Source: Ruegeria lacuscaerulensis
Lineage (GTDB): Bacteria > Pseudomonadota > Alphaproteobacteria > Rhodobacterales > Rhodobacteraceae
NCBI RefSeq assembly: GCF_013034685.1
Contig: NZ_WQGO01000005.1
Coordinates: forward strand, 62,001 to 126,000
Direction of reading: 5' to 3'
DNA length: 64,000 nucleotides
Every line of letters starts with the position of its first letter. The stretch's first letter is position 1. Shown in pieces: positions 12,703-63,388 of the stretch. The position numbers were made by a program, and so were the translations under genes. The notes beneath the pieces were generated by a model. It saw only the letters and a list, made by a program, of their open reading frames with translations. It had not been told where the DNA came from and ran no database searches.

Positions 12703-14216
12703 GACAGCAAGCTGCGCCCGGTCATTTCCTGAGGCTGCTCCAGTCCCATCAGGTCCAACAGTGTCGGTGCCAGATCCGACAGCCGCCCCTCGCGCAGCGT
12801 AGCGCCCTCGGGTCCGCCGACCAAAGCCACGGGCACCGGGTTCAGCGTATGCGCTGTATGCGGCCCACCGGTTTCAGGGTCGACCATCACCTCGCAGTTG
12901 CCGTGATCCGCCGTCACGATCATCGCGCCCCCTGCTTTGGTCAGCGCCGCAACAACTTGCGCCAAGCCCTGATCCACCGCCTCGCACGCCTTGATAGCTG
13001 CATGAAGATCACCGGTATGGCCGACCATATCGGGGTTGGCATAGTTGGTGACGATCAGGTCATAGCCCTCTTCAATCGCCTCAACGAATTTGGCCGTCAC
13101 CTCGGCCGACGACATCTCGGGCTGCAAATCATAGGTCGCCACTTTTGGCGATTTGGGCATATAGCGGTCTTCGCCCGCCTCGGGGGTTTCCTTGCCACCG
13201 TTGAGGAAGAAGGTGACATGGGGGTATTTCTCGGTCTCGGCCAAACGGAACTGACGCAGACCTTGTTTGGCCACCCATTCACCGAGGGTGTTCACGATGT
13301 CTCGCTTGGGGAATACAGTGGTCATATAGGCGTTGTGGCCGTCTGAGTATTCCACCATTCCCAGCAAAGCCGACAGATGCGGACGCGGCCCGGTGTCGAA
13401 ATCGGCAAAACCCGGCTCGCCAATCGCGCGCAGGATTTCGCGGGCGCGGTCGGCGCGGAAGTTCAGGCAGAAGAAGCCGTCGCCGTCCTTGATGCCCTCA
13501 AATCCGCTCAGCACCGTGGGCAGAATGAACTCATCGGTTTCGGATTGGTCATAGGCGTGTTCAACGGCTGCACGCGCAGAAGCCGCCGCACGGCCCTTAG
13601 CTTTGATCATGGCGTCATAGGCCTGACTGACCCTTTCCCATCGATTGTCGCGGTCCATGGCATAGTAGCGCCCGCTAACAGTGACGATCTGCGCGCCGTC
13701 AGGTAGTCGCTCTTCCAGTTCAGCAACAAAGGGCGCGGCTGATTTCGGGGCCACGTCCCGCCCATCCGTCACCGCGTGCAACGCCACCGATACACCCGCA
13801 TCCGTGATCGCCTTGGCCGACGCCACGATGTGGTTCAGGTGACCATGCACGCCGCCATCCGAGACCAGACCCATCAGATGCGCCGTGCCGCCCGCCGCCT
13901 TCACCTTGGCGATGAAGGCCTGCAACGCCTGATTTTCGAAAAATGACTCATCCTCAATTGCCAGATCAATCTGCCCCAGATCCATCGCCACCACGCGGCC
14001 TGCGCCAATATTGGTATGGCCAACCTCAGAATTGCCCATCTGGCCGCTAGGAAGACCCACGTCAGGCCCGTGTGTGATCAGCTGGGCGTGCGGCCCCTGC
14101 GCCATGATCGCGTCAAATGTCGGGGTCTGCGCCAGATAGGGGGCGTTGGCCTTGGTCTCCGCGGACAGACCCCAACCATCAAGAATGCACAGGACGACAG
14201 GTTTGGGGGCGGTCAT
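12699..14216 (-). CDS. gpmI: 2,3-bisphosphoglycerate-independent phosphoglycerate mutase
   Basis: A 505-residue Mn-dependent glycolytic enzyme that interconverts 3- and 2-phosphoglycerate in the cytoplasm. The alkaline-phosphatase-fold metal site begins with Asp13 in CILDGWG. The phospho-acceptor Ser63 is in GQMGNSEVGHTNIGAGR. VSDGGVHGHLNH, TDGRDVAPKSA and the late TADHGNCE motif are all typical. Length is standard. It is the first gene of the gpmI-envC-ctpA set; the tie to envelope genes is a positional habit of Alphaproteobacteria rather than evidence of a shared reaction. Confidence 0.97.
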   Translation of the reverse strand: MTAPKPVVLCILDGWGLSAETKANAPYLAQTPTFDAIMAQGPHAQLITHGPDVGLPSGQMGNSEVGHTNIGAGRVVAMDLGQIDLAIEDESFFENQALQAFIAKVKAAGGTAHLMGLVSDGGVHGHLNHIVASAKAITDAGVSVALHAVTDGRDVAPKSAAPFVAELEERLPDGAQIVTVSGRYYAMDRDNRWERVSQAYDAMIKAKGRAAASARAAVEHAYDQSETDEFILPTVLSGFEGIKDGDGFFCLNFRADRAREILRAIGEPGFADFDTGPRPHLSALLGMVEYSDGHNAYMTTVFPKRDIVNTLGEWVAKQGLRQFRLAETEKYPHVTFFLNGGKETPEAGEDRYMPKSPKVATYDLQPEMSSAEVTAKFVEAIEEGYDLIVTNYANPDMVGHTGDLHAAIKACEAVDQGLAQVVAALTKAGGAMIVTADHGNCEVMVDPETGGPHTAHTLNPVPVALVGGPEGATLREGRLSDLAPTLLDLMGLEQPQEMTGRSLLS

Positions 14217-20637: not shown

Positions 20638-21861
20638 TTATCCGCCGAAATCGTCCAGCATGATGTCTTCGCGGTCCACGCCCAAGTCCAGCAGCATGTT
20701 GATGACCGACTGGTTCATGATCGGCGGTCCACACATGTAGAACTCGCAATCCTCGGGCGCGGGGTGGTTCTTGAGGTATTCCTCGAACAGAACGTTGTGG
20801 ATGAAGCCGGTATAGCCTTTCCAATCGTCCTCGGGCTGCGCATCCGACAGGGCGACATGCCATTCGAAATTGTCGAACTCTTCGGCCAGTTGGTCGAAAT
20901 CCTCGACAAAGAACATCTCTTTCTTCGACCGCGCGCCGTACCAGAAGCTGATCTTGCGATCGCGGTTTTCCAGACGCTTGAGCTGATCGAAGATGTGGCT
21001 GCGCATAGGGGCCATGCCCGCACCACCACCGATAAAGACCATCTCTTTCTGCGTGTCGCGGGCAAAAAACTCACCAAACGGACCCGAAATCGTGACTTTG
21101 TCACCCGGTTTCAGGTTGAAGATATACGACGACATCTGACCCGGGGGGATACCATCCGAACCCGGAGGCGGCGAAGCCACTCGGACGTTCAGCATGATCA
21201 TGCCTTTTTCGTCCGGATAGTTGGCCATGGAATAGGCACGCTCAATCGGTTCGGCCACGACGGATTCGTATTGCCACAGATTGAACTTGTCCCAATCTTC
21301 GCGATACTCGTCCTGAACGTCGAAATCGGTGTATTTCAACGCGTGCGCGGGGGCCTCGATCTGGATATAGCCACCGGCACGGAAGTTCACGTCCTCGCCT
21401 TCCGGCAGGTCCAGGGTCAGGGCCTTGATGAAGGTCGCCACGTTGTCGTTGGATCGGACGGTGCATTCCCATTTCTTGACGCCAAAGACCTCTTCGGGGA
21501 CTTCGATGTCCATGTCCTGCTTGACCGCGACCTGACAGGACAGACGGTCACCGCACGAAGCCTCACGCTTGGTGATATGGCTTTCCTCGGTTGGCAGGAT
21601 CGAGCCACCGCCCGAATGCACCCGCACCCGGCATTGCGCGCAGGTACCGCCGCCGCCACAGGCGGACGGAACAAATAGCTTCTCGGCCGCCAGCGTTTGC
21701 AGCAGTTTGCCACCTGCTGGGACCGAGATGGTTTTCTCACCGTTGATGGTGATGTTCACGTTCCCGGTCGACACCAGCTTGGACCGCGCAGCCATGATGA
21801 TGGCCACCAGCCCCAACACGATCAGGGTAAAAAGAACGACGCCTAAGCTAAAAGTTTCCAT
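20638..21861 (-). CDS. nqrF: Na+-translocating NADH:quinone reductase subunit F
   Basis: A 407-residue NADH-oxidising entry subunit. It has one N-terminal anchor helix ([20 protein letters not shown]) and a [2Fe-2S] ferredoxin domain with Cys68, 74, 77 and 109 ([16 protein letters not shown]). A FAD-binding domain with RAYSMANYP and an NADH-binding domain with [12 protein letters not shown] and [11 protein letters not shown] follow. It is the last gene of nqrABCDEF and ends at a shared terminator. All redox motifs are intact. Confidence 0.98.
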
Positions 21862-21871
21862 GCGCCCCTCC

Positions 21872-22480
21872 TTACAGTTTCACGCCTGAGAAGGACATGA
21901 AGGCCATCGCCATCAGACCCGCGGTGATGAAGGTGATCCCAAGCCCTTGCAGGCCGTCGGGGATATCCGAATATTTCAGCTTTTCGCGCACACCCGCCAT
22001 CGCAGTGATCGCCAACGCCCAGCCAAAACCGGAAGACAGACCATAAGTCGCGGCCTCGGCAAAGTTATAGTCGCGCTCCACCATGAACAGTGAACCACCC
22101 AAGATCGCGCAGTTCACCGTGATCAGCGGCAAGAAAATCCCCAGCGCGTTGTAGAGCGGCGGGAAATACTTATCCAAAACCATCTCAAGGATCTGAACCA
22201 TCGCCGCGATCACACCGATATACGAGATCAGGCCAAGGAAGGTCAGGTCCACATCCGGGAAACCGGCCCAGGCCAGCGCGCCCGGTTTCAGCAGGTAGTT
22301 CAGCAACAGGTTGTTGGCAGGCACAGTGATGGCCTGCACAACCATGACCGAGATGCCCAGACCCAGCGCGGTCGAAATCTTCTTGGACACGGCGATGAAG
22401 GTACACATCCCGAGAAAGAAGCTGAGCGCAAGGTTTTCGACAAAGATAGCCTTTACGGCCAATGAAATCAGACCTTCCAT
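21872..22480 (-). CDS. nqrE: Na+-NQR subunit E
   Basis: A 202-residue integral membrane subunit with six predicted helices. Together with NqrD it forms the inverted-repeat pair of membrane subunits that carries the cysteine-ligated iron centre: Cys26 in [15 protein letters not shown] and Cys118 in [13 protein letters not shown] are the conserved cysteines of NqrE. The start abuts the nqrD stop (one-base overlap), so translation is coupled. Confidence 0.97.
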
Positions 22481-23133
22481 CAGTGGGCCTCTACCTGCTG
22501 AATTTTGTATTCACGCTCTTCCACCTGGTTCGGCTTCCATGTGCGGAAGGCCCAGATGATCAGACCGATGATGAAGAACGCTGACGGAGGTAGCAGCAGC
22601 ATCCCGTTGGGCACGTACCAGCCACCGTTGTTGACGGTCTCCAGAATGGTGATGCCAAACAGCGACCCGGCCCCGAACAGCTCGCGGATGAAGCCCACCA
22701 GCAGCAGGATCAGGCCGTAGCCCATACCGTTGCCCATGCCGTCGATGAACGACGCGACGGGCGGGTTCTTCATCGCAAACGCCTCAGCCCGGCCCATCAC
22801 GATACAGTTGGTGATGATCAAGCCGACAAAAACCGACAGGGTTTTCGAGATCTCAAACGCATAGGCCTTAAGGATCTGGTCCACCAGGATCACCAGCGAA
22901 GCGATGATCACCATCTGTACGATGATCCGGATCGAGCCCGGAATCTGGTTGCGCAGGCACGAGATAAAGAAGGACGAGAACGAGGTCACGAAGATCACCG
23001 CCAGCGCCATCACCATCGACACTTGCAGCGACGAGGTCACCGCCAGCGCCGAACAGATGCCCAGCACCTGCAGAGTGATCGGGTTATTGTCGACAAGCGG
23101 GTCGACCAGCATCTCTTTCTTGCTCTGAGACAT
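22480..23133 (-). CDS. nqrD: Na+-NQR subunit D
   Basis: A 217-residue membrane subunit with about six helices, homologous to NqrE and RnfA/E. Conserved cysteines are seen in [16 protein letters not shown] and [17 protein letters not shown], matching the metal-ligand positions. The C-terminus has a short cytoplasmic tail ([16 protein letters not shown]). It is packed between nqrC and nqrE with one-base overlaps on both sides. Confidence 0.97.
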
Positions 23134-23948
23134 CAGATTTCTCCTGCTTGCAGTTTGGCCAGGAACGGAGCGTAACCCGCATCCCCCATCCAGAATTTCA
23201 CCAGGTTATCGACACCGACCGAAGTCAGCGTGGCACCGGCCAGCGCGTCGACATAAAAGTCCGGGCCAGCGGCGGGCTGCGATTTGGCCACGGTGATCTG
23301 AAGCTCACCCGCGTCATCGCGCAGCTTTTTACCGTTCCACAGTGCCTTCCAGCGGGGGTTGTCCACCTCGGCCCCAAGGCCCGGCGTCTCACCATGCTGA
23401 TAGAATTGCAGACCGAAGATATCGTTGCCGTTGTTCTCCAGCGCGATGAAGCCATAGAGCGTGGACCACAGGCCATAGCCATGCAGCGGTAGGATCACCT
23501 TGTCTAACTCGCCCGCATCATCGCGCAACAGGTAGATGACACGGTACTTAGACTGACGCCCGATACCCGCCGGGTCATTGTCCAGCGCAACGCTGAAGTC
23601 CGGGTCGCTGGCCGCAGCGATGTCATCAAACGTGGCAGCGTCGAACCGATCGTCGACGAAAGCGCCCGTCGACAGTTCAAGTACATGCGGTTCGAACGCG
23701 GCGAATGCCTCGGTGACATCTACGCCCGGCTCATAGACACCGGCGACTTGCAAAACGTTGACCTGCTTGTCCTTCAGCGCGTTGGCTTCTTGCACAGGGC
23801 GCAGGCTGACGGCTGCGGCGGATACGACCATCGAGGCCACAAGGCAGACAGCGACCGCGACGATGATCGTTTTGCCGACAGAATCCGGCGAGGCGGCCAG
23901 AAATTTTGCAATAGCGCCCTTTGGTTCTTGGGACTGCGTATCAGACAT
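23133..23948 (-). CDS. nqrC: Na+-NQR subunit C (covalent FMN)
   Basis: A 271-residue subunit anchored by one N-terminal helix ([20 protein letters not shown]) with a large periplasmic domain. The flavinylation site reads [15 protein letters not shown] near residue 230. ApbE normally modifies the Thr of an S/T-GAT motif; here the residue before GAT is Ala. The rest of the site and the following LVKFW are conserved. [10 protein letters not shown] and [14 protein letters not shown] are family motifs. It overlaps nqrB by eight bases. The Ala substitution may be normal for this lineage. Confidence 0.95.
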
Positions 23949-25149
23949 GGCGACGCGCCCTCCGTTTGATGTTGGCTTGCACGACGAAATAGTCGATTAG
24001 CGGCGCAAAGACGTTTCCGAAGAGGATAGCCAGCATCATGCCTTCGGGGAAAGCAGGGTTAATGACGCGGATCATCACAACCATGACACCGATCAGCGCA
24101 CCGTAGATATAGCGGCCCATGTTAGTGTGGCTGGCGGAAACCGGCTCGGTGACCATGAAAGCCAGACCAAAGGCGTAGCCGCCCAGTACGATGTGCCAGT
24201 ACCAAGGCATCGCAAACATCGGGTTGGTGTCCGACCCGATCAGGTTCAGCAACAGGCTAAAGCCGATGGTCCCCGCCAAACAGCCCAGGATCAGGCGGTA
24301 GTTGGCAATTTTCGTTGTCAGCAGGAAGGCCAGGCCGATCATGCAGGCCAGCGCCGATGTCTCACCAAAACTGCCCTGAATGGTGCCGAAGAACGCATTG
24401 GCCCAGGTGATCCCGTCGGCCGCCAGCGCCTGAACGCCCTCGGCTGCGGTGATCCCCAACGCGGTCGCGCCCGAGAACCCATCCACAGGAGTCCAGACCG
24501 AGTCCCCCGACATTTGCGCGGGATAAGCGAAATACAAGAACGCCCGCCCCACCAATGCCGGGTTGAGGAAGTTCTTGCCGGTGCCGCCAAATACTTCTTT
24601 GCCGATGACAACGCCAAAGATGATGCCCAAAGCGACCTGCCACAGCGGTGTCGATGCCGGCAGGATCAGCGTGTAGAGCATCGATGTGACAAGAAAGCCC
24701 TCGTTCACCTCATGCCCGCGCACGGTGGCAAAGATGACCTCGAAAATACCACCCGCGACCAGCGTCGTGATGTAGATCGGCAGGAAATAAAGTAACCCGT
24801 GCAACACATTGGCAAACAGGCTGGACGGATCCAGCGAGATGCCGAACATCTGCAGCAAAGCAATACGCCAACCGGTCGCGGCATCCGGACCAAGCGTCGC
24901 AATGGCCGAGTTCGCCTGATAGCCCGTATTCCACATCCCCCACAGGATACAGGGGATCGTGGCGATCACGACATAAGTCATAATCCGCTTCATATCCACG
25001 TAGGATCGTGCGTGCGGGGCAACGGTGGTGACGGTTTTCGGAGTGTAGATGAAGCTTTCGACCATCTCGTAGATGGGGAAATACTTCTCGTACTTGCCGC
25101 CCTTGGTAAAGTTCGGCTCAATCCGATCGAAGAAGCTGCGCAAACCCAT
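23941..25149 (-). CDS. nqrB: Na+-NQR subunit B (membrane, covalent FMN, riboflavin)
   Basis: A 402-residue membrane subunit with about ten helices. The covalent FMN site is PVDGFSGATALG, with the canonical SGAT. GGTGKNFLNPALVGRAFLYFAYP and EVFGGTGK belong to the NqrB/RnfD family. It follows nqrA by five bases and overlaps nqrC. NqrB forms part of the Na+ path and the quinone site. Confidence 0.98.
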   Translation of the reverse strand: MGLRSFFDRIEPNFTKGGKYEKYFPIYEMVESFIYTPKTVTTVAPHARSYVDMKRIMTYVVIATIPCILWGMWNTGYQANSAIATLGPDAATGWRIALLQMFGISLDPSSLFANVLHGLLYFLPIYITTLVAGGIFEVIFATVRGHEVNEGFLVTSMLYTLILPASTPLWQVALGIIFGVVIGKEVFGGTGKNFLNPALVGRAFLYFAYPAQMSGDSVWTPVDGFSGATALGITAAEGVQALAADGITWANAFFGTIQGSFGETSALACMIGLAFLLTTKIANYRLILGCLAGTIGFSLLLNLIGSDTNPMFAMPWYWHIVLGGYAFGLAFMVTEPVSASHTNMGRYIYGALIGVMVVMIRVINPAFPEGMMLAILFGNVFAPLIDYFVVQANIKRRARRHV

Positions 25150-25154
25150 GTGGA

Positions 25155-26498
25155 TCAGCCCTCCTTTTCAATCTTGGTCAGGCAGTCGCGCAGCGCCAGC
25201 CCGTATTCATATTTTGCCGGACAGGCAAAGCCCACAAGGCCCAAATCCTCTTCATCCAGCTCCAACGCACCCAACGCCTGCGCCGTGTCCGTGTCCATGA
25301 CAAGCAATGCGCGCAGCAGTTGCGTTGGCAAATAGTCCTGCGGCATCAGCTCTTCGAACACGCCAGTCGGCACCATCGCACGACGGCCGCCATTCAGGTT
25401 TGAAGTGAACGCATACAGCTTTTTCGCAAAGGCCGAGCCCAACACGGGCTGTACGGCGAATTTCGACGGCATCGGAAGAATCCAACCCATCGTGTGTTGA
25501 TCGTGATCTTCACGGATGATCGAAACCTGCCGCGCAAAGCGGCCCAGATAAGCGGTCGGGCCTTCAGCCTGTGCACCTGACAGGATCGAGCCCGAGATAA
25601 TCCGGGGCGTCCCGTCCACATCAACCTCATCGCGGGTCAGATCGTCGGTCGACGCGCCCATGACCGTGCGGATTAAGCGTGGCTGACGCGCGCCCGGACC
25701 GGTTAGAGCGATCACGATATTGGGGTCCAGATGGCCGGCCTGCATCAGGCGACCAATGGCGATGACGTCCTGATACCCGATGGTCCAGACCTGCTTGTCC
25801 CCTGCCAGCGGCTCAAGGAAATGAATATGCGTCCCCGCCAGCCCCGACGGGTGCGGACCTGCGAATGCGGCGGCTTCAATTCCCGGCACATCGGCGCCCG
25901 GTACCGAGTCACCCTCTTTGTGGCACAGATAGGTCTTGCCTTCGGTCAGGTTCGCGACCGCCGCCAGACCCGCAGCGAAAGCATCCCCTGCGTCAGCGAT
26001 GATCACGGCTGCATCACCCGCCAGAGGCTCACTGTCCATCGCCGTCACGAAAATCGCTGCAGGTGTGGTGCCGGGTGTCGGCATTTTGGAATAGGGCCGC
26101 GTTCGGAAGGCCGTCCAAAGACCCGCAGCACACAGCTTGGCCGTCACGCCCTCGGCGCTGTCGGCATTCCCGGTGCCCGAGAAATCAACCCCGGTGTCAT
26201 TGGGGTCTGACACCTCGATCACGACGCTTTGCAGCACGCGCCGAGCACCGCGATTGACTGCGACGACCTTGCCGGTCATTGGCGCTACCATCATCGCATC
26301 GGGCGCGTCTTTGTGACTAAACAGGGGCGTGCCGCGCTGGACGTCGTCACCCTCTTGTACCAGCATCTTGGGTTTCAGGCCAATATAGTCGCCGCCCAGA
26401 ACCCCGACGGTCGAAAACTCGGGTCCAGGATGAATCGTCTGATCCGGCGCACCCAGCACCGGCAGCTCGAACCCTTTTTTCAGTTTGAAAGTTTGCAT
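25155..26498 (-). CDS. nqrA: Na+-NQR subunit A
   Basis: A 447-residue peripheral subunit associated with quinone binding. I start at the ATG of MQTFKLKKGFELPVLG at 26498, the natural NqrA N-terminus; the frame continues upstream but encodes an Arg-rich stretch unlike NqrA. Typical motifs are VLGGDYIGLKPKMLVQEGD, FSHKDAPDAMMVAPMTGKV near the N-terminus and HFLEPLAGDKQVWTIGYQDV in the middle. It is the first gene of the nqr operon, with a 288-base intergenic region upstream that should hold the promoter. Confidence 0.97.
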   Translation of the reverse strand: MQTFKLKKGFELPVLGAPDQTIHPGPEFSTVGVLGGDYIGLKPKMLVQEGDDVQRGTPLFSHKDAPDAMMVAPMTGKVVAVNRGARRVLQSVVIEVSDPNDTGVDFSGTGNADSAEGVTAKLCAAGLWTAFRTRPYSKMPTPGTTPAAIFVTAMDSEPLAGDAAVIIADAGDAFAAGLAAVANLTEGKTYLCHKEGDSVPGADVPGIEAAAFAGPHPSGLAGTHIHFLEPLAGDKQVWTIGYQDVIAIGRLMQAGHLDPNIVIALTGPGARQPRLIRTVMGASTDDLTRDEVDVDGTPRIISGSILSGAQAEGPTAYLGRFARQVSIIREDHDQHTMGWILPMPSKFAVQPVLGSAFAKKLYAFTSNLNGGRRAMVPTGVFEELMPQDYLPTQLLRALLVMDTDTAQALGALELDEEDLGLVGFACPAKYEYGLALRDCLTKIEKEG

Positions 26499-26786
26499 GT
26501 CGCTACGGTCTTCCAAGCCTCTTTGTCTGCGCCAACTCTGCCGACGTCCTTTCGGAATCCTGCAATAGCACGGTTTTTCGGGATCTCCGTCGCAAAAGCG
26601 CCGAAAACGGTCCAAAATCCGCAGGCATATTTTCGATCATGGACCCTTTACGCGGGGATGGTCATAAACGCAAACCTGTTACCGCTCAAAGCCGCAAGTA
26701 ATTGTCACATTCCTATCATGTTGCGCAGTTTCGATGCGTGGAAAATGCATGTCGCACCCGGATCGCATCCGGTGTAAGCACCCAAA
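26499..26786. promoter_or_regulatory. Divergent intergenic region between nqrA and the RNA methyltransferase gene
   Basis: 288 bases with no convincing gene. It must hold the nqr operon promoter on the minus strand and the methyltransferase promoter on the plus strand. CCGGAT-cgc-ATCCGG (26758-26772) is a perfect six-pair inverted repeat 14 bases before the methyltransferase ATG. No clear -35/-10 pair or riboswitch-like fold was recognised. Confidence 0.4.
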
Positions 26787-27990: not shown

Positions 27991-28067
27991 CGGAGTGTAG
28001 CTCAGCCTGGTAGAGCACTGTCTTCGGGAGGCAGGGGTCGGAGGTTCGAATCCTCTCACTCCGACCA
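27991..28067 (+). tRNA. tRNA-Pro (anticodon CGG)
   Basis: A complete 77-base cloverleaf. The acceptor CGGAGTG pairs with CACTCCG, the D arm is GCTC...GAGC, and the anticodon stem is CTGTC/GGCAG around the loop TTCGGGA, giving anticodon CGG (reads CCG). The T arm is GGAGG-TTCGAAT-CCTCT. The 3' CCA is encoded. A terminator hairpin follows eight bases later. Confidence 0.97.
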
Positions 28068-31453: not shown

Positions 31454-32212
31454 TCAGTCCGGCTTGCGGGCGATGATCCAGATCGGGTGATAGGTCAGCG
31501 GCACAGTCCCGTCGCTGCCGTGACGCGCGACATAGTCATCCGAAAACCGCCGCAAATCCGACCGGGTCCAGGTTGCCCGCGCGCGGCCGTTCACCCCGGT
31601 GCTCCGCAAATGGCGTAATACCTCATGAGGCGAGTCAAACCGTAGTGTCCGGATAGAATGACCGGTTGCAACCACCTCCAGTTCATCGCGGACGGCAGCG
31701 GACAGCTCTTCGAGCTGGCACAGGCCCGGCGCACCAGCGTTGGAGCCGACTTGGGCCAGCTCTTGAAACTGCCTCGGACCAAAGCCCGAAACAGCCATCC
31801 ACCCTCCGGGTTGCAGCCAATTTGCTATGCGTTGCATCAGAATCGCCGGGTCCTCAAACCACTGGATCATCGAGGCCGAGCAGATCAGATCGACTTCATT
31901 TGGCCACATGATCTGCTGGGCGTCACCACACAGGAAAGATGCATCTGCGTCTGTTGCCGTTTTTTCAGCCTCAGGCGCAAGGTCATTGAGCGTCAGCGAC
32001 TGAAACCGGAAAGTTTCCTTCAACCGTTGGGTCAGGTGGCCTGTGCCGCACCCCAACTCTAACCCATGGGTAAACTTGTCGGGCGCGCCATGGATTCGCA
32101 GGGCATCGACCAAATCCGCCGCAATCTGCGCTTGCTGGCCCGCCGCGTCGTGGTAGCTCCCGAAGCTGCGGCTAAAACTGCGTTGTACCCGGTCTGTGAT
32201 CAATGCGTTCAT
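31454..32212 (-). CDS. bioC: Malonyl-ACP O-methyltransferase
   Basis: A 252-residue SAM-dependent methyltransferase that masks malonyl-ACP as the methyl ester to start pimelate synthesis. It starts MNALITDRVQRSFSRSFGSY, the usual BioC opening. SAM motif I is LELGCGTGHLTQRL, and LICSASMIQWFEDP followed by GWMAVSGFGPRQF are family features. The ATG overlaps the bioG stop (ATGA). It is the last gene of the biotin operon. Start chosen over a GTG three codons upstream because of the overlap and family N-terminus. Confidence 0.93.
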   Translation of the reverse strand: MNALITDRVQRSFSRSFGSYHDAAGQQAQIAADLVDALRIHGAPDKFTHGLELGCGTGHLTQRLKETFRFQSLTLNDLAPEAEKTATDADASFLCGDAQQIMWPNEVDLICSASMIQWFEDPAILMQRIANWLQPGGWMAVSGFGPRQFQELAQVGSNAGAPGLCQLEELSAAVRDELEVVATGHSIRTLRFDSPHEVLRHLRSTGVNGRARATWTRSDLRRFSDDYVARHGSDGTVPLTYHPIWIIARKPD

Positions 32213-32823
32213 GCCAACCACTCTGCCCAGTTTTGACCCGCTCGAAACGGAACATGCGGGCCGTCAATGCGCCGAATGGCCGAGCTCTGCCACGCCGCCT
32301 CTTGCGCCTTGGTGGGGATGATCCGGTCTTGGTGCGGAATCCACACTCTGTCAAACCGACACGCCGGAGCGGGGCCGCGCTGAAGGATCGCACGCAGTTC
32401 CGCTTGCGCCGCGTGGATGTCGATCTGCGGGACTGGCCCTTCGAACCCGGCGCGGCGACAGAATTTGGCAAAGCTGGCCGCACTCAGATTGTCGGCAGTG
32501 GCGTTGATCATATCAGGCGCGATGCCTTTTTCGGCATCCGCTGGAAACAAGGTACCGCTGACCGCCACCAGACGATCCGGGTTGACCCCCGCCCCCTCTA
32601 ACCAATGCACAGCCGAGGCGACACCGAAGGAAAACGCCAGCACATCGAGCCGATCATAATCGGCCAGTTCGGGCAGTTCAGCATCAAGCTGGGTATAGTC
32701 GTCGACAAACAGAACATCCCCACCGCCCTCCAGCCCGGCAAACGGGGCAGGCCCCAGCGCCCAACCACCGAACACCAGTGTCAGGTTTTCAACACCAGAG
32801 CGGGACAGCCAGACCGCCTTCAT
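32209..32823 (-). CDS. bioG: BioG-type pimeloyl-ACP methyl ester esterase (DUF452 family)
   Basis: A 204-residue alpha/beta-hydrolase fold protein, short for the fold as expected of BioG. The nucleophile Ser lies in LAFSFGVASAVHW; the late His is in RIDGPHVPF and an Asp candidate is in IPHQDRIIP. BioG cleaves the methyl ester of pimeloyl-ACP, doing the job of BioH in E. coli. Position between bioA and bioC with four-base overlaps on both sides strongly supports the role. The family is divergent, so assignment rests on fold motifs plus context. Confidence 0.88.
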   Translation of the reverse strand: MKAVWLSRSGVENLTLVFGGWALGPAPFAGLEGGGDVLFVDDYTQLDAELPELADYDRLDVLAFSFGVASAVHWLEGAGVNPDRLVAVSGTLFPADAEKGIAPDMINATADNLSAASFAKFCRRAGFEGPVPQIDIHAAQAELRAILQRGPAPACRFDRVWIPHQDRIIPTKAQEAAWQSSAIRRIDGPHVPFRAGQNWAEWLA

Positions 32824-34106
32824 GCCTCGCCCCGCGCCAGATTAACCATCGCCGCCGTCACCTGGCTCAACTCATCGCCCGAGATCACGAAAGGCGGCAT
32901 ACAGTAGATATTGCGCGCAAAGGGGCGCAGCCAGACACCGGTCTTTGGCGCTTGTGCATGCGCGATCCGAGGGTCAACCACGCTCTCCATCTCGATCACG
33001 CCAATTGCCCCCAGAACCCGCACATCGGCTACGCCCGGTATGTCGCACGCGGGCGCAAGCTCATGCTCCATCTGCTTGGCAATTGCGCTGACCTCATGAT
33101 GCCAGTCACGCTGTTTCAGTTGGTCGAGGCTGGCGATGGCCGCCGCGCACGCCAGCGGGTTGGCCATATAGGTCGGCCCGTGCATCAACACGCTGGCCTC
33201 GCTTTCACCAATCCCGCGCGCAACGGCTTCGGTCGCGATTGTAGCGGCCAGAGTGATATGACCCCCCGTCAGCGCCTTGCCCACGCACAGGATATCCGGC
33301 ACCACATCCGCGTGTTGCATGGCAAAAAGCTGACCCGTCCGCCCAAACCCGGTGGCGATCTCGTCAAAGATCAGCAACACCCCATGGGCCGAACACAGCT
33401 CGCGCGCGCCTTTCAGCCAGGACGGGTGATAGAAATACATCCCGCCCGCACCCTGTACCACCGGCTCAAGGATCAGCGCGGCGATCCGGTCGCCCTGACG
33501 GTCCAGCATCTCTTCCAGAGCGCCAAGCCCATTCAACGCCGGATCCTCCGGCCAGTCCTGTCCCAACGCTACAGAGGGCCGGGGCAGGAAATGCTGGATC
33601 GACATCGCCCCCCGGAACAGCCCATGCATTCCATTGACTGGGTCGCAGACGCTCATCGCTTTCCATGTATCGCCGTGATACCCACCCCGGATCGTGGCAA
33701 ATTCAGTCCGACCCGAATGCCCTTTGGCCATCTGGTATTGCACCGCCATCTTCAACGCGACCTCGATCGCGACCGAGCCGCTGTCGCTGTAGAAAATCCG
33801 ATCGAGCCCATCGGGCAGCATGTCGGTCAGCCGCTTGCCCAGCTCAATCGCAGGCGTATGGGTCAGGCCGCCGAACATGACATGGGGCAAGTGATCCAAC
33901 TGCGCCTGCATCGCTGCGATGATGGCCGGGTGACGATGGCCGTGCACCGCACACCACCAAGATGACATGGCGTCGATCATCTTACCGCCGTCCTCGCGCG
34001 TCAGCCAGACGCCTTCGGCCGAAGAGATCAGGTGCATCGGCCCCGGATCCAGAACATTCGTATAAGGATGCCACAAATGGCGCGCGTCAAAATCCAAAGG
34101 GGTCAC
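32820..34106 (-). CDS. bioA: Adenosylmethionine-8-amino-7-oxononanoate aminotransferase
   Basis: A 428-residue PLP aminotransferase using SAM as amino donor to make DAPA. The natural start is the GTG at 34106 (then [16 protein letters not shown]), which overlaps the bioD stop as GTGA; the frame is open for another 267 bases upstream but that part is the shadow of bioD. HLWHPYTN and [13 protein letters not shown] are BioA hallmarks, [16 protein letters not shown] forms the PLP phosphate loop, [12 protein letters not shown] carries the PLP Asp, and the Schiff-base Lys is in [10 protein letters not shown]. Confidence 0.95.
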
Positions 34107-34723
34107 AGCGCACCCCGTATCGTGGTCAGATCCACCCCCGCCATCGCATCGGCCACATTGGCACGCGTCACGGTGTCCAGAATCGGCAGCCGTCCCAGAT
34201 GGCGCGTCTCGCACATCTCGACAATAGTTTGTTCGACATCCGGCTCGGCGTCTCCGATGAATGCCACGCCGACCACGTCGACACCCGCGCCGCGCAAGGC
34301 GCGCAAGGACAGCGCGGTGTGGTTGATTGTGCCCAAAGCCGTGCGCGCCGCCAGAACGACCGGCGCCTGCCAACGGGCAAACAGGTCCAGAAAGAAATGC
34401 TGCCGGGTCAGAGGCACCATCACGCCACCCGCCCCTTCCACAACCAACGGGCCGGGAACCTGAGGCAAAGTCAGTCGCTCAAGGTCGATCTCAACCCCCA
34501 TATCCTCGGCCGACAGATGCGGCGAGGCGGGCAGGTTCAGCCGATACGCCTCGGGCAGGATCGGCGCGCCAGACAGGGCCTGCACGGTTTCGGTATCCGT
34601 CGCCTCTTCCAACCCGGACTGGACCGGCTTCCAATAGCTGGCCCCAAGGGCAGCGGCCAGCCCGGCGGACAGGACGGTCTTGCCCACACCGGTATCGGTG
34701 CCGGTGACGACCAGAGTGCTCAT
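34103..34723 (-). CDS. bioD: Dethiobiotin synthetase
   Basis: A 206-residue P-loop enzyme that closes the ureido ring of dethiobiotin with ATP and CO2. The P-loop is [11 protein letters not shown] near the N-terminus, KPVQSG binds substrate, and [12 protein letters not shown] is the Mg/ATP motif. Length is slightly short of the E. coli enzyme but complete. It overlaps bioF and bioA by four bases each. Confidence 0.95.
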
Positions 34724-35853
34724 GCGGCCTCCTTCCGGTAGCGCGACAGTGTTTCGAACAAGGCGCTGATCTCGGATTTGGTGACATTCCCGGTGATCGA
34801 GATTCGCAACCGCGACGTGCCCTTCGGCACGGTCGGCGGGCGGATGCCGCGGATATCAAAACCTTGTTCCTGCAAGCGCGCCGCCGTTGCCATGGTGCTG
34901 GCGTCATCACCTAGAATGACGGGGATAATCTGACTGGTCAGAGCTTGCGGCGCGATCCCAGCACTATGCGCCACCGAATGGGCATGCGCGATCCGGTCCT
35001 GCGCCTGCTGCGTCCAAATCGGGTCGTTGCTCAGCAGCTCAAGCGCGGCCCGCACGAGGGCTGCATTAAAGGGCGACGGGGCGGTGGCAAAAATGAACGG
35101 GCGCGCGCGATTTATCAAAGTGTCGATTATCACACGCGGACCGCAGATCAATCCGCCCGCAACACCCAGACCCTTGCCGCAGGTGTGCAAGGTCAGCACA
35201 TCCGCGTCCAGCCCATGCGCCAGCCCCCGGCCCTGTGGACCAAAGACGCCCGTTGCGTGGGCCTCATCCACCACCAGCACCGCATCGTGGTCCCGCGCCA
35301 GCGTTGCGAAATCGACCAACGGGGCCAGATCGCCTTCCATCGAATAGACACTTTCGACCGCAACCCAAACTTGACCCGAACCACCCTCGGTGCGCCATTG
35401 CGTCAGAACCCGGCGCGCATCGGCCAAGTCATTATGAGCAAAGCCCCGTGTGTCGGCACGCCCGGTGCGCATCCCTTCGAACGCGCTGGCATGGACCAAA
35501 GCGTCATGCAGGATCAGATCCCCCGCGGCGGGGAGGCTGGAAAAGATGGCCTGATTGGCCTGAAACCCGCCACCCATGAAAAGCGCGGCCTCGGCCCCGA
35601 AAAAACTTGCGGCGAACTGTTCCAAAGCCTCGTGCTCGGGGTGGTTGCCGCGCAACAGGCGCGACCCGCCCGACCCTAGCGGTACCCCGCGCGACAGCGC
35701 GTGCTGCGCGGCCTCGGCCAATTCGGGCGACGGCGCCAGCCCCAGATAGTCGTTCGACGCGAAATCCAACCCCCGGCGCGGTGACAACACCCGCCGACGA
35801 TGCCGGTTGCCCAGCACCTCAAGCATCGAGGACAATCGCGCCGTAACCGTCAT
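34720..35853 (-). CDS. bioF: 8-amino-7-oxononanoate synthase
   Basis: A 377-residue PLP alpha-oxoamine synthase that joins pimeloyl-ACP with alanine. Motifs include [43 protein letters not shown] and the Schiff-base Lys227 in [13 protein letters not shown]. It overlaps bioB and bioD by four bases each, placing it second in the operon. Confidence 0.95.
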
Positions 35854-36830
35854 TCGGCCGCGTCAGCCCGGCTGTCCTGTGCCGCGACCTCGGCCTGAAG
35901 CCCCAGCTTGGCAAAAAGAACCGCGTCTGTGTCTTCCTCAGGGTTTTCCGCCGTCAGCAGCGTTTCGCCCACAAAGATCGAGTTCGCACCGGCAAAGAAA
36001 CACATCGCCTGCAGCTCATCGCTCATGTCGCTGCGCCCGGCAGACAAGCGGACATAGGATTGCGGCATCATGATCCGTGCCACCGCGATCACCCGCACAA
36101 AGTCAATCGGATCAATCGGCTTGGCATCGGCCAGCGGTGTATCCTGCTGCGGCATCAGCATGTTGATCGGAACCGAATCCGGCGCAGGCGCCATGTTGGC
36201 CAGCGTCACCAGCATATCCATACGGTCCTGAACGCCCTCGCCCATGCCCAGAATGCCACCCGAACACACCTTGATCCCCGCCTCTTGCACCCGGTTCATC
36301 GTGTCGATCCGGTCGGCAAAGGTCCGGGTGGTGATCACTTCGGAATAATAACGCTCGGACGTGTCGATATTGTGGTTGTAGTAATCCAGCCCCGCATCAC
36401 GCAGTTGCACCACCTGCGTGTCACTCAGCATGCCAAGCGTCATGCAGGATTCCATCCCCATGTCGCGCACGCCTTCGACCATGGCAACCAGCGCAGCCAT
36501 GTCGCGGTCTTTGGGCTCGCGCCACGCGGCCCCCATGCAGAACCGGGTCGCGCCGCCCTCTTTCGCCTTGCGGGCCTCGGACAGAACCCGCTCGACCTCG
36601 ATCAGTTTCGAGGCCGACAGCTTGGACCCATTGCGCGCCGATTGCGAGCAATAGGCGCAGTCCTCGGCGCAGCCTCCGGTCTTGATCGACAAAAGTTTCG
36701 AGGTCTGGACCTTATTGGGATCGAAATTGGCGCGATGCACTGTCTGGGCGCGAAACAGAAGATCCATCAGCGGCAGATCATACAGCGCCTGAGCCGCGTC
36801 ACGAGTCCATGAGTTAGTTTGGTTCTGCAT
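35850..36830 (-). CDS. bioB: Biotin synthase (radical SAM)
   Basis: A 326-residue radical-SAM enzyme that inserts sulfur into dethiobiotin. The [4Fe-4S]-SAM site is [14 protein letters not shown] with Cys54, 58 and 61. [16 protein letters not shown] and [14 protein letters not shown] are typical BioB, as is the C-terminal [19 protein letters not shown]. It is the first gene of bioBFDAGC. Its ATG lies one base from a BioR-type box, so repressor binding would block the promoter or leader directly. Confidence 0.97.
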
Positions 36831-59776: not shown

Positions 59777-60460
59777 CTAGCCGCTGGATTCGATCCGCAC
59801 TTTTCTGATCTCGGGCGCGATGCGGCTATAGGCGGCCAGCAGACGCTCGGACCAGTTGCGATGGATATAGTCCGCCTCGAACCGCGAGGGGGCGACAAGG
59901 GTTACGGTCCCCCCTGCCCTCTCGGCCTCGATCAAATGGCGAAACCAGCTGGCCCAAAGCTCGGGATCGCGCCCGTGCAAAATGGCCTGAACCTGCGTCC
60001 AGATATCTCCATCGCTTTCCTCGGGCGCTGGAGGTTTCACTTTGAACGGCACCACATTTGTGCCGGGCTCGGGCGAGTCTGACATCCGCGCGACAAAATC
60101 CGCGCCAATCGTCGGCCAAACCTCGGACGTGTCGATCATCACCTGTTTGAGGTCCAGCTCATACACCGCCACCCTGCCCCGCGCGGCGGGGCGTTTGACC
60201 GCAATCCAACCCATAGACCGCAGCTTGGACATCTCACGTTTGACGGTGCGCTCATTCACCGACCATAGCCGCGCAATCTCTTCCCGCCCGATCGACAACT
60301 CATTCGCGCGCCAGTTATACCGCGTGGTGATCAACGCAATGATGCGTAGAATACTGCGCTGCCGATGCTTGTCGCCTGACAAAGCGTGCACCGTCATCGC
60401 GGACAGGATATCATATTTTATGGCGGGCGCGTTTAGCCCAACCGGTTTTGCAACCTGCAT
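59777..60460 (-). CDS. DnaA-like plasmid replication initiator
   Basis: A 227-residue initiator starting at the ATG 60460 (MQVAKPVGLNAPAIKYDILSAM). The frame is open to a TTG at 60556, but that TTG lies upstream of the transcription start expected from a promoter at 60545-60573, so I prefer the ATG. Residues ~35-110 are a winged helix (SIGREEIARLWSVNERTVKREMSK). The C-terminus (~148-227) has DnaA-domain-I features: IWTQVQAIL, WASWFRHLI, LVAPSRFEADYIHRNW. This is the 'DnaA-like' replicase group of Roseobacter plasmids, distinct from chromosomal DnaA (no AAA+ ATPase). Divergent from parAB. Confidence 0.82.
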   Translation of the reverse strand: MQVAKPVGLNAPAIKYDILSAMTVHALSGDKHRQRSILRIIALITTRYNWRANELSIGREEIARLWSVNERTVKREMSKLRSMGWIAVKRPAARGRVAVYELDLKQVMIDTSEVWPTIGADFVARMSDSPEPGTNVVPFKVKPPAPEESDGDIWTQVQAILHGRDPELWASWFRHLIEAERAGGTVTLVAPSRFEADYIHRNWSERLLAAYSRIAPEIRKVRIESSG

Positions 60461-60925
60461 TCCAATCTTACCGCTCTGTCTGCCTCGGGCGGAGTTTCCA
60501 CCCCTGTTGCGCTGTTTGCCAACGCTTTTCGTCTTGATGCCCTGATTAGCGTCCAAAGCGACGATTCTGTCAAGAGAAGTTTGATTTGACCCGGTTTTTC
60601 AGCAACTCAAACCCAATTTTAAAAAAGAAAAATGGTGAAGTATTGGTGATGGGGGACATTCTAGTTGTCCCCTTAAGTGGCGTATTTGTCCCCCCAAATC
60701 GACCGATAGAGAGTCTAACGCCCCCCTAAATATAGCGTCCTGCCCTATTTTCCAGAGGCACCGCGAATCACCGCGATTCGGGTCCTGAAGGACGTTGATT
60801 TCCCTTGTTTATGTTACCCATGGGTAAGATCGTGATCTGAGTATATTTTCTTTTGCTTAAAGTGCAAATAGGGCGTAAATAGTGAAATCATAAAAAATAG
60901 CGTCCATAATAGTGAGACCCGAGGC
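60461..60925. other. Probable replication origin and divergent promoter region
   Basis: 465 bases between the initiator and parA. On the minus strand TTGACA (60568-60573), a 17-base spacer and GCTAAT (60545-60550) form a strong promoter for the initiator gene. An AT-rich run lies at 60611-60634. TGTCCCC motifs occur at 60651-60658 (inverse), 60666-60672 and 60687-60695. Two hairpins, CGAATC-accgc-GATTCG (60764-60780) and GTCCT-ga-AGGAC (60782-60793), precede a parS-like palindrome at 60814. ATAGCGTCC is repeated at 60732 and 60897, and AATAGTGA at 60878 and 60908 beside the parA start. This repeat density fits a plasmid origin with parA operator sites; none has been tested. Confidence 0.6.
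60814..60827. promoter_or_regulatory. parS-like palindrome, copy 1 (upstream of parA)
   Basis: TTACCCATGGGTAA, a perfect 14-base palindrome followed by GATC. Copies at 61910 and 63323 share TTACCC-AY-GGGTAA-GATC. It is the probable ParB-binding centromere site nearest the origin. Confidence 0.7.
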
Positions 60926-62233
60926 ATGTATACGCACGAAGACCTGAACGCATTGCGGAACCAGTCCCTTAAGTTGCAGGGCTGGATTCGGCAGCAAACC
61001 TTTAGTCCTGAGATGGAGAAGACTCTTCGTCGTTTTTCCAGCTGGGAAGTGTCCGAGCTGATCTTTCGCATTAACCAGTCGACCTTTCGGGGCAAGCTGG
61101 CTGCGGATCCCTCGCTGCCGGGTGGTGAGGTGGAACCAGACGGCCGGCAACGCTGGTTCAGCCTGGAAGAGGTGAATGAGCTCCGCCGGCGGCTCAAGGT
61201 GAACCGCAAATCTCTTATGCCGCCCCGCCCCGTTGGTAAACGCGCGATACGTGCGGCGGTGGCAAACTTCAAAGGCGGCGCTGGTAAGTCGACCGTTGCG
61301 CTTCACTTGGCTCATGCGGCGGCGCTGGATGGCTACCGCGTGTTGGTGGTGGATTTCGATCCGCAAGCCACTTTGAGCCATTCCATGGGCCTGACCGATG
61401 TGGCCGAAGATTTCACGGTCTGGGGTATTATGGCCCGCGATCTGATCCGCGAAACCGAGCGTATGAACAACCGCCCCGTCGCTGCTGAATCAGGCACCGC
61501 CCTGCCCCGCCGCGAATTGCCGCCGTCGATCACGGACATGGGCCTGGGCGATCTTCGGATTGGGGATTTCATCAAGCAAAGCTCGTGGTCGACCATTGAC
61601 GTTGTCCCCTCCTGCGCCAACGCCGCCTTTGTCGAGTTCGCCTCGGCCCAGTATCGTCACTTGAACCCAGAGTGGTCATTCTTCGCGGCTGTGTCGCGTT
61701 ATCTGGATCAGATCCCCGATGATGCCTATGACCTGATCCTGTTCGATTGCCCGCCTGCGATTGGTTATCAATCCATGAACGCGGTGTTCGCGGCAGACAT
61801 GCTCTATATTCCCTCAGGGCCCGGCTATTGGGAATACGACTCGACAACCTCTTTCATTGGTCAGTTGGCTGAAGCGCTGGAAGACCTTGCCTACGGTTTC
61901 GACAAGACCTTACCCACGGGTAAGATCGGCTTACCCAAGACATTCTGTGAAATGCGCTTTCTGCTGACCCGGTACGAGCCAGGCAATGCGCTGCATTCGG
62001 CCATGTTCGAGGCGTTCAAGAAAGTATTCGGTGAACATGTGGCCGAGCATCCGGTTGAAATGACCCGTGCGGTCGAACAATCCGGTCGGTTCCTGAGTTC
62101 GGTCTATGAGATGGACTACCGCGAAATGACGCGCGAGACATGGCGCAGGGCGCGGTCTACATTTGATAACGTGTACGAGGAATTCCGGGGCGTGATGCTT
62201 TCGGCCTGGGACCAATTGGAGGATGACGCATGA
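60926..62233 (+). CDS. parA: ParA-family partition ATPase
   Basis: A 435-residue Walker-type ATPase that drives plasmid segregation. Its N-terminus (residues ~38-92, WEVSELIFRINQSTFRGK, RWFSLEEVNELRRRL) is a MerR-like DNA-binding region, as in plasmid ParA/RepA proteins that repress their own operon. The deviant Walker A is FKGGAGKST (115-123). VLVVDFDPQATLSHSMG is Walker A', and LILFDCPPAIGYQSMNA Walker B. The gene carries a parS-like site within its coding sequence at codons ~329-333. parB starts within its stop (ATGA). Confidence 0.92.
   Translation: MYTHEDLNALRNQSLKLQGWIRQQTFSPEMEKTLRRFSSWEVSELIFRINQSTFRGKLAADPSLPGGEVEPDGRQRWFSLEEVNELRRRLKVNRKSLMPPRPVGKRAIRAAVANFKGGAGKSTVALHLAHAAALDGYRVLVVDFDPQATLSHSMGLTDVAEDFTVWGIMARDLIRETERMNNRPVAAESGTALPRRELPPSITDMGLGDLRIGDFIKQSSWSTIDVVPSCANAAFVEFASAQYRHLNPEWSFFAAVSRYLDQIPDDAYDLILFDCPPAIGYQSMNAVFAADMLYIPSGPGYWEYDSTTSFIGQLAEALEDLAYGFDKTLPTGKIGLPKTFCEMRFLLTRYEPGNALHSAMFEAFKKVFGEHVAEHPVEMTRAVEQSGRFLSSVYEMDYREMTRETWRRARSTFDNVYEEFRGVMLSAWDQLEDDA
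61910..61923. promoter_or_regulatory. parS-like palindrome, copy 2 (inside parA)
   Basis: TTACCCACGGGTAA followed by GATC, within parA codons reading L-P-T-G-K-I. A half-site TTACCC follows at 61931. Identical to copy 3 and one base from copy 1. Confidence 0.65.
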
Positions 62234-63336
62234 GCCGCAAACGCAGAATGTTCGACATCGACATGCCTTCCATGGAGGATATCCCGGTTGGCAAAGTTCC
62301 TGACAAGGTCTTGGAAAAACGCCGTGGCCCGATGGCCGCCGCGATCTCGGAAAACGCCGAAGCGTTGCGCGGGCAACAATCGACAGAGGACACCATACGC
62401 GCCGAAAACGATCGCTTGGCCCATGAGCTCGTTCGTCTGCGGTCCGAAGGTCTGGTGACTGAGCATGTACTTCTGGCTGATGTGGTAACTGAAAAGCTGA
62501 CCCGGGATCGCAAGAACGGCCCGGATCCTGAATTGGACGAGTTGAAGGATTCGATCCGCGAAATCGGATTGTCGAACCCAATCCGGTTGGAGCGTCGGGC
62601 TGATGGTCGGTACGAGCTCATTCAAGGGATGCGGAGATTGTCTGCCTATCGAGCTCTGTATCAGGAAACCGGCAATGAAGTGTATGCGACTATCCCGGCG
62701 GGCATTTCGGATGGCGCGGATCTGAATGACAGCTACCGTCGCATGGTAGATGAAAACCTGATCCGCAAGGATATCTCATTTGCGGAAATGGGTACATTGG
62801 CGCGGGCCTTTGCCGAGAACCCTGCGAATGAATGCCCGGACGTGGACAAGGCCGTTGCGCTTTTGTTCAAGTCCGCCAGCTATACCAAACGCAGCTATAT
62901 CCGATCGTTCGCCAGCCTGCTGATGATGCTGGACAAGGTGCTGATGCATCCTAACGATATTCCGCGCAATGTCGGCGTTGAGCTGAAACGTAGGTTGGAT
63001 GCCGATCCCGGTTTGGCGCGTCATGTGAGCACCAGTTTGATGAACGAACCGGATCGCGACGGCGCGCGCGAGGTTGCTATTCTTCGCTCGTTTTTAGAGC
63101 CGACAGCTGACAACCCCAAGAAAGTGCCAGGTGCAAGCGGTGGAAAGACGCGGCGGGCGAAGACCACGTTTCAAGTTTCGGGCAGGGCAGGGGTGGCGAA
63201 GTGCTCGGCCTCAAGCGGGCGAATTGAACTGCGCTATAATCTGGACTTCACACGGGTGAACCGTGCCAAGCTAGAGCAAGCGATCGCCTCATTGCTGGAC
63301 GAGTTGCAGGAAGACGACGACCTTACCCACGGGTAA
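62230..63336 (+). CDS. parB: ParB-family partition protein (RepB/ParB type)
   Basis: A 368-residue centromere-binding protein. The ParB N-domain has LDELKDSIREIGLSNPIRLE and YELIQGMRRLSAYRAL (about residues 97-140), the CTP-binding box region. A helix-turn-helix follows (DISFAEMGTLARAFAEN, SYTKRSYIRSFASLL). The C-terminus (FTRVNRAKLEQAIASLLDEL) is a dimerisation helix. It overlaps parA by four bases. The stop codon is the last three bases of parS copy 3, and a terminator follows. Confidence 0.92.
   Translation: MSRKRRMFDIDMPSMEDIPVGKVPDKVLEKRRGPMAAAISENAEALRGQQSTEDTIRAENDRLAHELVRLRSEGLVTEHVLLADVVTEKLTRDRKNGPDPELDELKDSIREIGLSNPIRLERRADGRYELIQGMRRLSAYRALYQETGNEVYATIPAGISDGADLNDSYRRMVDENLIRKDISFAEMGTLARAFAENPANECPDVDKAVALLFKSASYTKRSYIRSFASLLMMLDKVLMHPNDIPRNVGVELKRRLDADPGLARHVSTSLMNEPDRDGAREVAILRSFLEPTADNPKKVPGASGGKTRRAKTTFQVSGRAGVAKCSASSGRIELRYNLDFTRVNRAKLEQAIASLLDELQEDDDLTHG
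63323..63336. promoter_or_regulatory. parS-like palindrome, copy 3 (overlapping the parB stop)
   Basis: TTACCCACGGGTAA followed by GATC. The last three bases are the parB stop codon TAA. Identical to copy 2. Confidence 0.65.
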
Positions 63337-63361
63337 GATCAGCAACATGCTAACAAACAGA

Positions 63362-63388
63362 AACGCCGGGCCAGTGCCCGGCGTTTTT
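63362..63388 (+). terminator. Terminator of the parAB operon
   Basis: CGCCGGGC-cagt-GCCCGGCG followed by TTTTT, 25 bases after the parB stop. An eight-pair GC-rich stem with a T run makes this a classic intrinsic terminator. Confidence 0.9.

Follow-up and report, generated by a model that had tools for sequence, protein, structure and literature searches.

Does a plasmid-type replication and partition module that lies beside normally chromosomal genes drive a replicon of its own, or did it come to stand there by integration or by an error of assembly? The question is raised by a 64,000-nucleotide stretch of Ruegeria lacuscaerulensis (hereafter, the window), which spans positions 62001–126000 of a contig of 386,063 bases (C29) in a draft genome of 4.60 Mb, 33 contigs and 99.84% completeness. 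Positions 59777–63388 of the window hold a DnaA-like initiator gene (rep), parA and parB, and the same window holds accD, folC, gpmI, zapE and the nqr genes. A first-pass annotation had offered three explanations, namely an integrated plasmid, a chromid that took up chromosomal segments, and an assembly join. Our analysis supports the second: we put at close to nine in ten the probability that C29 is most of one Ruegeria chromid, that 59777–63388 is its replication and partition locus, and that its accD block passed from the chromosome to a RepB replicon and from there to a DnaA-like module.

The module and its putative origin region

Every component that had been named in the module (the initiator, an origin-like gap, parA, parB, parS-like sites and a hairpin) was recovered at 59777–63388 by Pfam, palindrome and hairpin scans. 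The replication initiator gene occupies 59777–60556 on the minus strand, with an uncertain start codon (the annotated orthologue of Ruegeria AD91A is 33 residues shorter than its tblastn match), and its product carries a DnaA_N match at the C-terminal end (residues 185–242, E-value 7.6e-6, 26.0 bits for a Pfam cut-off of 24.6) and, mid-protein, an HTH_Crp_2 match that stays under the cut-off (residues 84–122, 22.7 bits, cut-off 27). Divergent from rep and separated from it by a 369-bp gap, parA (60926–62233, plus strand, 435 aa) encodes a partition ATPase recognized by Pfam AAA_31 (E-value 7.2e-27), and parB (62230–63336, plus strand, 368 aa; ParB_N, E-value 1.3e-6) overlaps it by four bases. 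A GC-rich, terminator-like hairpin follows parB at 63361–63386, as seen in the hairpin scan and in the sequence; the scanner called it on the minus strand, and the T run after the hairpin is on the plus strand.

The initiator matched 292 of 72,556 plasmid records, 278 of them over 80% of its length, in a collection that holds plasmids only and may omit records close to the window's genome. Its closest relatives are 66–72% identical and belong to four Ruegeria plasmid records, those of AD91A (743 kb), THAF33 (811 kb), SCSIO 43209 (512 kb) and R. pomeroyi DSS-3 (491 kb), in which parA is 91–95% identical. A DnaA-related domain in the initiator, parAB beside it and orthology to such initiators place the locus in the DnaA-like replicon type of Rhodobacterales, reportedly described by Petersen et al. 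in 2011, with which it shares the arrangement of a DnaA-related-domain initiator beside a parAB operon as well as the occurrence on large replicons.

The gap between rep and parA (60557–60925) is the putative origin region; it holds the skew minimum described below and was aligned with the gaps of 12 further modules of type A, the type to which the window's initiator belongs (A and B being this analysis's own labels for initiators separated by sequence). The alignment outlines iteron-like repeats at 60651–60694 (GGGGGACA at 60651, TGTCCCC at 60666 and TGTCCCCC at 60687), and a sequence scan adds a fourth repeat-like element, CCCCCTAAAT, at 60722–60731. Exact repeat-core counts differ among the type A modules, some of which are without one core. 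At the matching places, two type B modules have GGTGACA and TGTCACC, and a repeat motif changing in this way in concert with the initiator type would be the behaviour expected of initiator binding sites.

Palindrome scanning placed three parS-like sites in the module, the first (TTACCCATGGGTAA) in the rep–parA gap (60814–60827), the second inside parA (61910–61923) and the third over the parB stop codon (63323–63336). TTACCCNNGGGTAA occurs in the window at these three places (60814, 61910 and 63323) and nowhere else, nor does it recur in the rest of the 386,000 bases read from C29; 100 shuffles of the window gave it a mean count of 0. Three such sites stand at fixed places in 13 of the 13 type A modules that have both rep and parA (two further loci without parA were left out of this count), and the type A palindrome was not found in either of the two type B modules examined. 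Judging from their protein families, the initiator would bind the GGGGGACA/TGTCCCC repeats through its helix-turn-helix part, its DnaA domain I-like end would bring in the replicative helicase, and ParA and ParB would act with parS to segregate the copies of a replicon that is probably of low copy number.

The cumulative GC skew of C29 has its minimum at 122,772 (position 60,772 of the window), inside the 369-bp rep–parA gap, and its maximum at 346,791; in 10-kb steps, negative values between 70 and 120 kb give way to positive ones between 120 and 220 kb. Among 5000 permutations per block size, 2 with 5-kb blocks and 25 with 10-kb blocks attained the change-point statistic, and none of 1000 per block size attained the skew range; note that these permutations address the strength of the inflection and not its place. 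In a 43-kb stretch of AD91A, the minimum also lies in the rep–parA gap, and among 11 further type A loci, 9 of the 10 with both flanks longer than 1.5 kb are negative on the left and positive on the right. On the B32 record, a circular one with a RepB module, the minimum lies at 47,828 (raw) or 48,585 (detrended), which is 0.3 and 1.0 kb beyond the RepB–parA gap, respectively. The skew points to origin activity at the module in the course of evolution, which does not imply present activity, and simple arithmetic gives a replicon of about 450 kb on the assumption of two arms of the same length.

The same genome has a second DnaA-like module, of type B, at C2:44242–47667 on a 100-kb contig, with an initiator about 40% identical to that of the window. 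The skew minimum of this contig (45,423) is 0.1 kb inside parA, and its skew range was reached by 8 and 26 of 1000 permutations.

Core genes on a replicon probably apart from the chromosome

At the left end of the window stand zapE (1–882, plus strand, named by similarity and cut by the window edge; C29:61824–62885), folC (958–2232) and accD (2229–3161), followed by gpmI (12699–14216) and the nqr genes (20638–26615, by similarity, with nqrF at the left end and nqrA, whose start is uncertain, at the right end). From folC onwards, all of these are on the minus strand, and folC, accD, gpmI and nqrF (20638–21861) are over their NCBIfam cut-offs. AccD, FolC and GpmI were each found once in the genome, all on C29 (elsewhere there are two weak matches, of 25% and 35% identity). 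C29 thus has two of the marks of a chromid, plasmid-type replication with parAB and core genes that have no chromosomal copy. With accD in single copy, the C29 replicon is probably indispensable to the cell. The G+C content is 0.582 for C29 and 0.56, 0.58 and 0.64 for other contigs (0.592 when pooled, over only 10,230 bases in three pieces), and a chromid is expected within 2.5% of its chromosome according to passages of PMC9025767. No overlap was found between the first and the last 10 kb of C29.

That the module is a plasmid integrated in the main chromosome, silent or active, beside ordinary chromosomal genes would agree with the chromosomal position of the accD block in other genera and with its place, in one Ruegeria genome (G038), on a contig with chromosomal markers. 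We nevertheless consider this very improbable, because none of seven chromosomal markers is on C29, because the block and an orthologous module of AD91A stand on a separate circular record with the same cargo, and because the global skew minimum of C29 falls at the module. The chromosomal dnaA, which the first-pass annotation had proposed to look for on the same contig, is on C30 with AhcY, LeuB and KdsB, while trpB is on C1, and HemE and adenosine kinase are on C27. AhcY, LeuB, KdsB, HemE and adenosine kinase, which we take to be so named from their protein starts, were chosen as markers for their presence on the accD contigs of G025, G028, G036 or G038. Because of this choice, the position of trpB off the accD contig in 54 of the 54 genomes of our genus set (mostly drafts, in which contig linkage depends on assembly) cannot by itself separate chromid from chromosome. 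The earlier idea of a second initiation system on core DNA held in part: the core genes do appear to depend on the module, whereas the other known initiators were found only on C2, C12 and C30.

Among the plasmid records, AccD reaches at least 60% identity in 5 of the 64 matching ones, all from Ruegeria (AD91A, THAF33, SCSIO 43209, R. conchae M340 and B32), and three of them (AD91A, THAF33 and SCSIO 43209; 512–811 kb) unite accD and an orthologous module on one record; those of AD91A, B32 and R. conchae M340 are given as circular. AD91A shows the gene order nqrA-F ... nqrM–sulfatase–gpmI ... accD–folC–zapE ... yaiI–sthA–fghA, and 23 of 26 AD91A proteins have matches on C29, the others (a transporter, a phosphoesterase and one MFS-flanking gene) being missing or below threshold. 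In addition, tex and icd, which lie to the right of the module on C29, accompany accD on its record or contig in AD91A (the same genome as G034), R. conchae, B32, G011, G022, G035, G039 and G043, and icd alone of the two was found on the accD contig of G029.

Such neighbours bear on the third explanation, an assembly join in the window that would have linked a contig of a chromid or plasmid to other DNA. The assembly is a 33-contig draft, the genes to the left of the module (a TRAP transporter and an amidohydrolase) differ from the annotated neighbours in AD91A, and C29:99–183 kb, around the module, has no B32 match at 60% identity and 60% coverage. However, genes of the accD replicon of relatives flank the module on both sides (accD, nqr and bio on the left, tex and icd on the right), and the skew minimum lies at the module, the 10-kb skew switching its sign at 120 kb, which makes a join scarcely credible in our view.

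By the same two thresholds, 104 of the 307 C29 open reading frames (ORFs) of at least 120 aa match the B32 record, in blocks at 55–99, 183–237, 251–257 and 303–360 kb plus one at 35 kb. The B32 record uses RepB; the module of R. conchae M340 is DnaA-like, of type B, and its parA is 99% identical to the parA on C2. The mosaic of C29 and B32 could have arisen when a DnaA-like replicon fused with a RepB chromid, and block transfer between replicons would fit it equally.

History of the accD block in the genus

The order DUF6478–ABC–CPBP–accD–folC is kept in 53 of the 53 other genus members, with zapE next in 52. Outside the genus, all 20 fetched loci contain accD–folC; the contig is longer than 2 Mb for 11 of these loci, and many have the same neighbours. 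The loci were fetched from 39 genomes (of 198) picked for few contigs or high TrpB identity and not at random. In the block tree, built with FastTree from five block proteins and 65 rows, G036 and the pair G025 and G028 branch outside a 53-row clade with an SH support of 100. Since the accD contigs of these genomes bear chromosomal markers (HemE and adenosine kinase in G025; AhcY, LeuB, KdsB and adenosine kinase in G028; AhcY and KdsB in G036), the deepest rows of the genus appear to keep accD on the chromosome, and its move seems to be of later date. The same markers are on C1 in G022, G034, G035, G039 and G043, assemblies of 2–6 contigs each, where accD is on another contig.

A large captured segment was also considered and rejected: only C29:55.8–76.2 kb is collinear, with an inversion, with the 400 kb of the G193 chromosome around accD, and 14 of the 22 matching ORFs lie in this part of C29, the other 8 being elsewhere. 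The flanks of the G193 accD block, presumably genes for a class III alcohol dehydrogenase, an NYN-domain protein, a nitroreductase-like protein and a membrane protein, were sought in ten genomes, and no clean empty site was found because these flank genes are far apart in other outgroups too.

Across the genus set, accD shares its contig with a type A initiator in 11 of the 54 genomes and with a full-length RepB in 11 others. Matches to the type A initiator at 57% identity or above occur in 33 of the 54 (one with stops and one partial), and full-length RepB in 31, with fragments in G051 (on the accD contig, near the contig start) and G052; G004, G006, G009, G014 and G041 have the block with RepB and, in addition, a separate type A module. 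On the block tree, at least five changes are required to account for the labels type A and RepB (23 rows), or six once type B is included (24 rows), and the first branches with known linkage in the 53-row clade are RepB (G001, G022 and B32, then G006).

From the block tree, it would appear that the accD block of about 20 kb, chromosomal in other genera, was transferred inside the genus to a replicon of RepB type and that a DnaA-like module subsequently took over its replication in several lineages, including this one; the simplest route would be that co-resident replicons fused and the RepB module was lost. We give about even odds to the fuller account, in which a single capture by a RepB replicon was followed by at least five changes of replication system (to type A repeatedly and to type B once), with the skew minimum at the resident module. 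The same label changes may also mean that the cargo moved independently between the chromosome and several plasmids instead of being captured once, and G038 resembles a return to the chromosome. Such moves are possible and, to us, rather doubtful, given a DUF6478-to-folC order that is the same throughout the genus set and the RepB linkage of the earliest known branches.

Several observations weigh against our reading of C29 as a chromid whose accD block reached a DnaA-like module by way of RepB. In 32 of the 54 genomes, mostly drafts, the accD contig has neither a type A initiator nor a full-length RepB, and the rows nearest to the window's genome (G023 and G050) have RepB and no type A initiator. 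The tree is that of the block's own genes and not of the species, and the label changes were not set against shuffled labels. In G038, accD is on a 1.02-Mb contig (C1) with chromosomal markers, and in G039, of the same 3-row clade, it is on an 897-kb type A contig; G038 is possibly a chromid–chromosome re-fusion or a chimaeric contig. As regards the module, L174, the remaining one of the ten type A loci with both flanks longer than 1.5 kb, has the opposite skew sign, and the AlphaFold2 model of the initiator (from four sequences) was poor, with a mean pLDDT of 43.6, so the fold of the initiator rests on the Pfam match. Finally, a complete RepB–parA–parB module is present at C12:312687–316983, on a 721-kb contig of the window's genome, which is the only one of the 11 type A-linked genomes with a full-length RepB elsewhere.

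Because this complete RepB module sits on C12, C12 and C29 could be one replicon, that is, a composite chromid with a DnaA-like and a RepB module. Both modules are complete in the genome, and G014 has accD and RepB on a common 1.01-Mb contig. Nevertheless, the cumulative skew of C29 by itself passes through both a minimum and a maximum, which is what most of one replicon should show, and C29 carries tex but no RepB, although tex adjoins RepB in 7 of the 9 contexts read; this makes a composite chromid unlikely. A RepB remnant was sought on C29 and gave no match better than an E-value of 2. The RepB module of C12, for its part, has no adjoining tex, unlike those seven contexts.

The core genes beside the module are not misplaced but most likely chromid residents. 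If the fuller account, in which one cargo passed between replication systems, is true, it would be the cargo and not the origin that defines this chromid, contrary to the view of one chromid type per genus. The genus may offer the stages of this history, with chromosomal markers on the accD contigs of G025, G028 and G036, RepB together with a separate type A module, type A with RepB gone or fragmentary, and a possible return (G038). It would thus make testable both the route by which essential genes leave the main chromosome and the exchange of replication systems while the cell depends on the cargo.

Known chromids and further features

C29 is most likely a DnaA-like chromid, and this kind is already known, since DnaA-like chromids with core genes have been published for Paracoccus and listed for Sulfitobacter. 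Passages of PMC3925955, PMC6209633 and PMC11578231 describe pAMI5, pAMV3, chromosome 2 of P. denitrificans and pYEE2 as such Paracoccus chromids, and these resemble C29 in a related initiator (49–51% identity in three P. yeei records), parAB and core genes. The core cargo in Ruegeria, accD–folC–gpmI–zapE–nqr, may set C29 apart from them, and in Ruegeria this cargo is not tied to one replication type; among AccD matches in plasmid records, Paracoccus is not one of the ten commonest genera. The initiator matches include a P. yeei record of 296,393 bp, the size of pYEE2, which is called DnaA-like in a passage of PMC6209633. Sulfitobacter pontiacus, for which passages of PMC9025767 give DnaA-like-I and -II chromids, shares the module type and the chromid status; in the same paper, a plasmid-cured Phaeobacter inhibens served as the host for replication tests. 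Within Ruegeria, the R. pomeroyi DSS-3 megaplasmid NC_006569 (491 kb) has an orthologous type A module and nqr genes but is not one of the five plasmid records in which AccD reaches at least 60% identity. Our searches of open-access literature, which covered titles and abstract openings of the papers returned, found no report of accD on a Ruegeria chromid or of a change of its replication type.

pAMI5 of Paracoccus is reported to carry nadABC; these genes of NAD synthesis are also on the B32 record (NZ_CP081107.1, 343648–347122). The same record has polysaccharide genes as an inverted duplication at about 0.3–37 kb and 377–386 kb, with repeated protein accessions.

The window further contains tRNA-Pro(CGG) at 27991–28067 on the plus strand, from a tRNA gene call, and biotin synthesis genes at 32133–36830 on the minus strand, named by similarity to the B32 plasmid record and with limits from the ORF calls. 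A second tRNA gene of the contig, tRNA-Leu(TAG), is at C29:360540–360624. To the right of the window and near the origin, C29:130968–144651 has ORFs that, from their protein starts, we take to resemble V/A-type ATPase subunits, followed by what are presumably genes for arginine deiminase, ornithine carbamoyltransferase and carbamate kinase.

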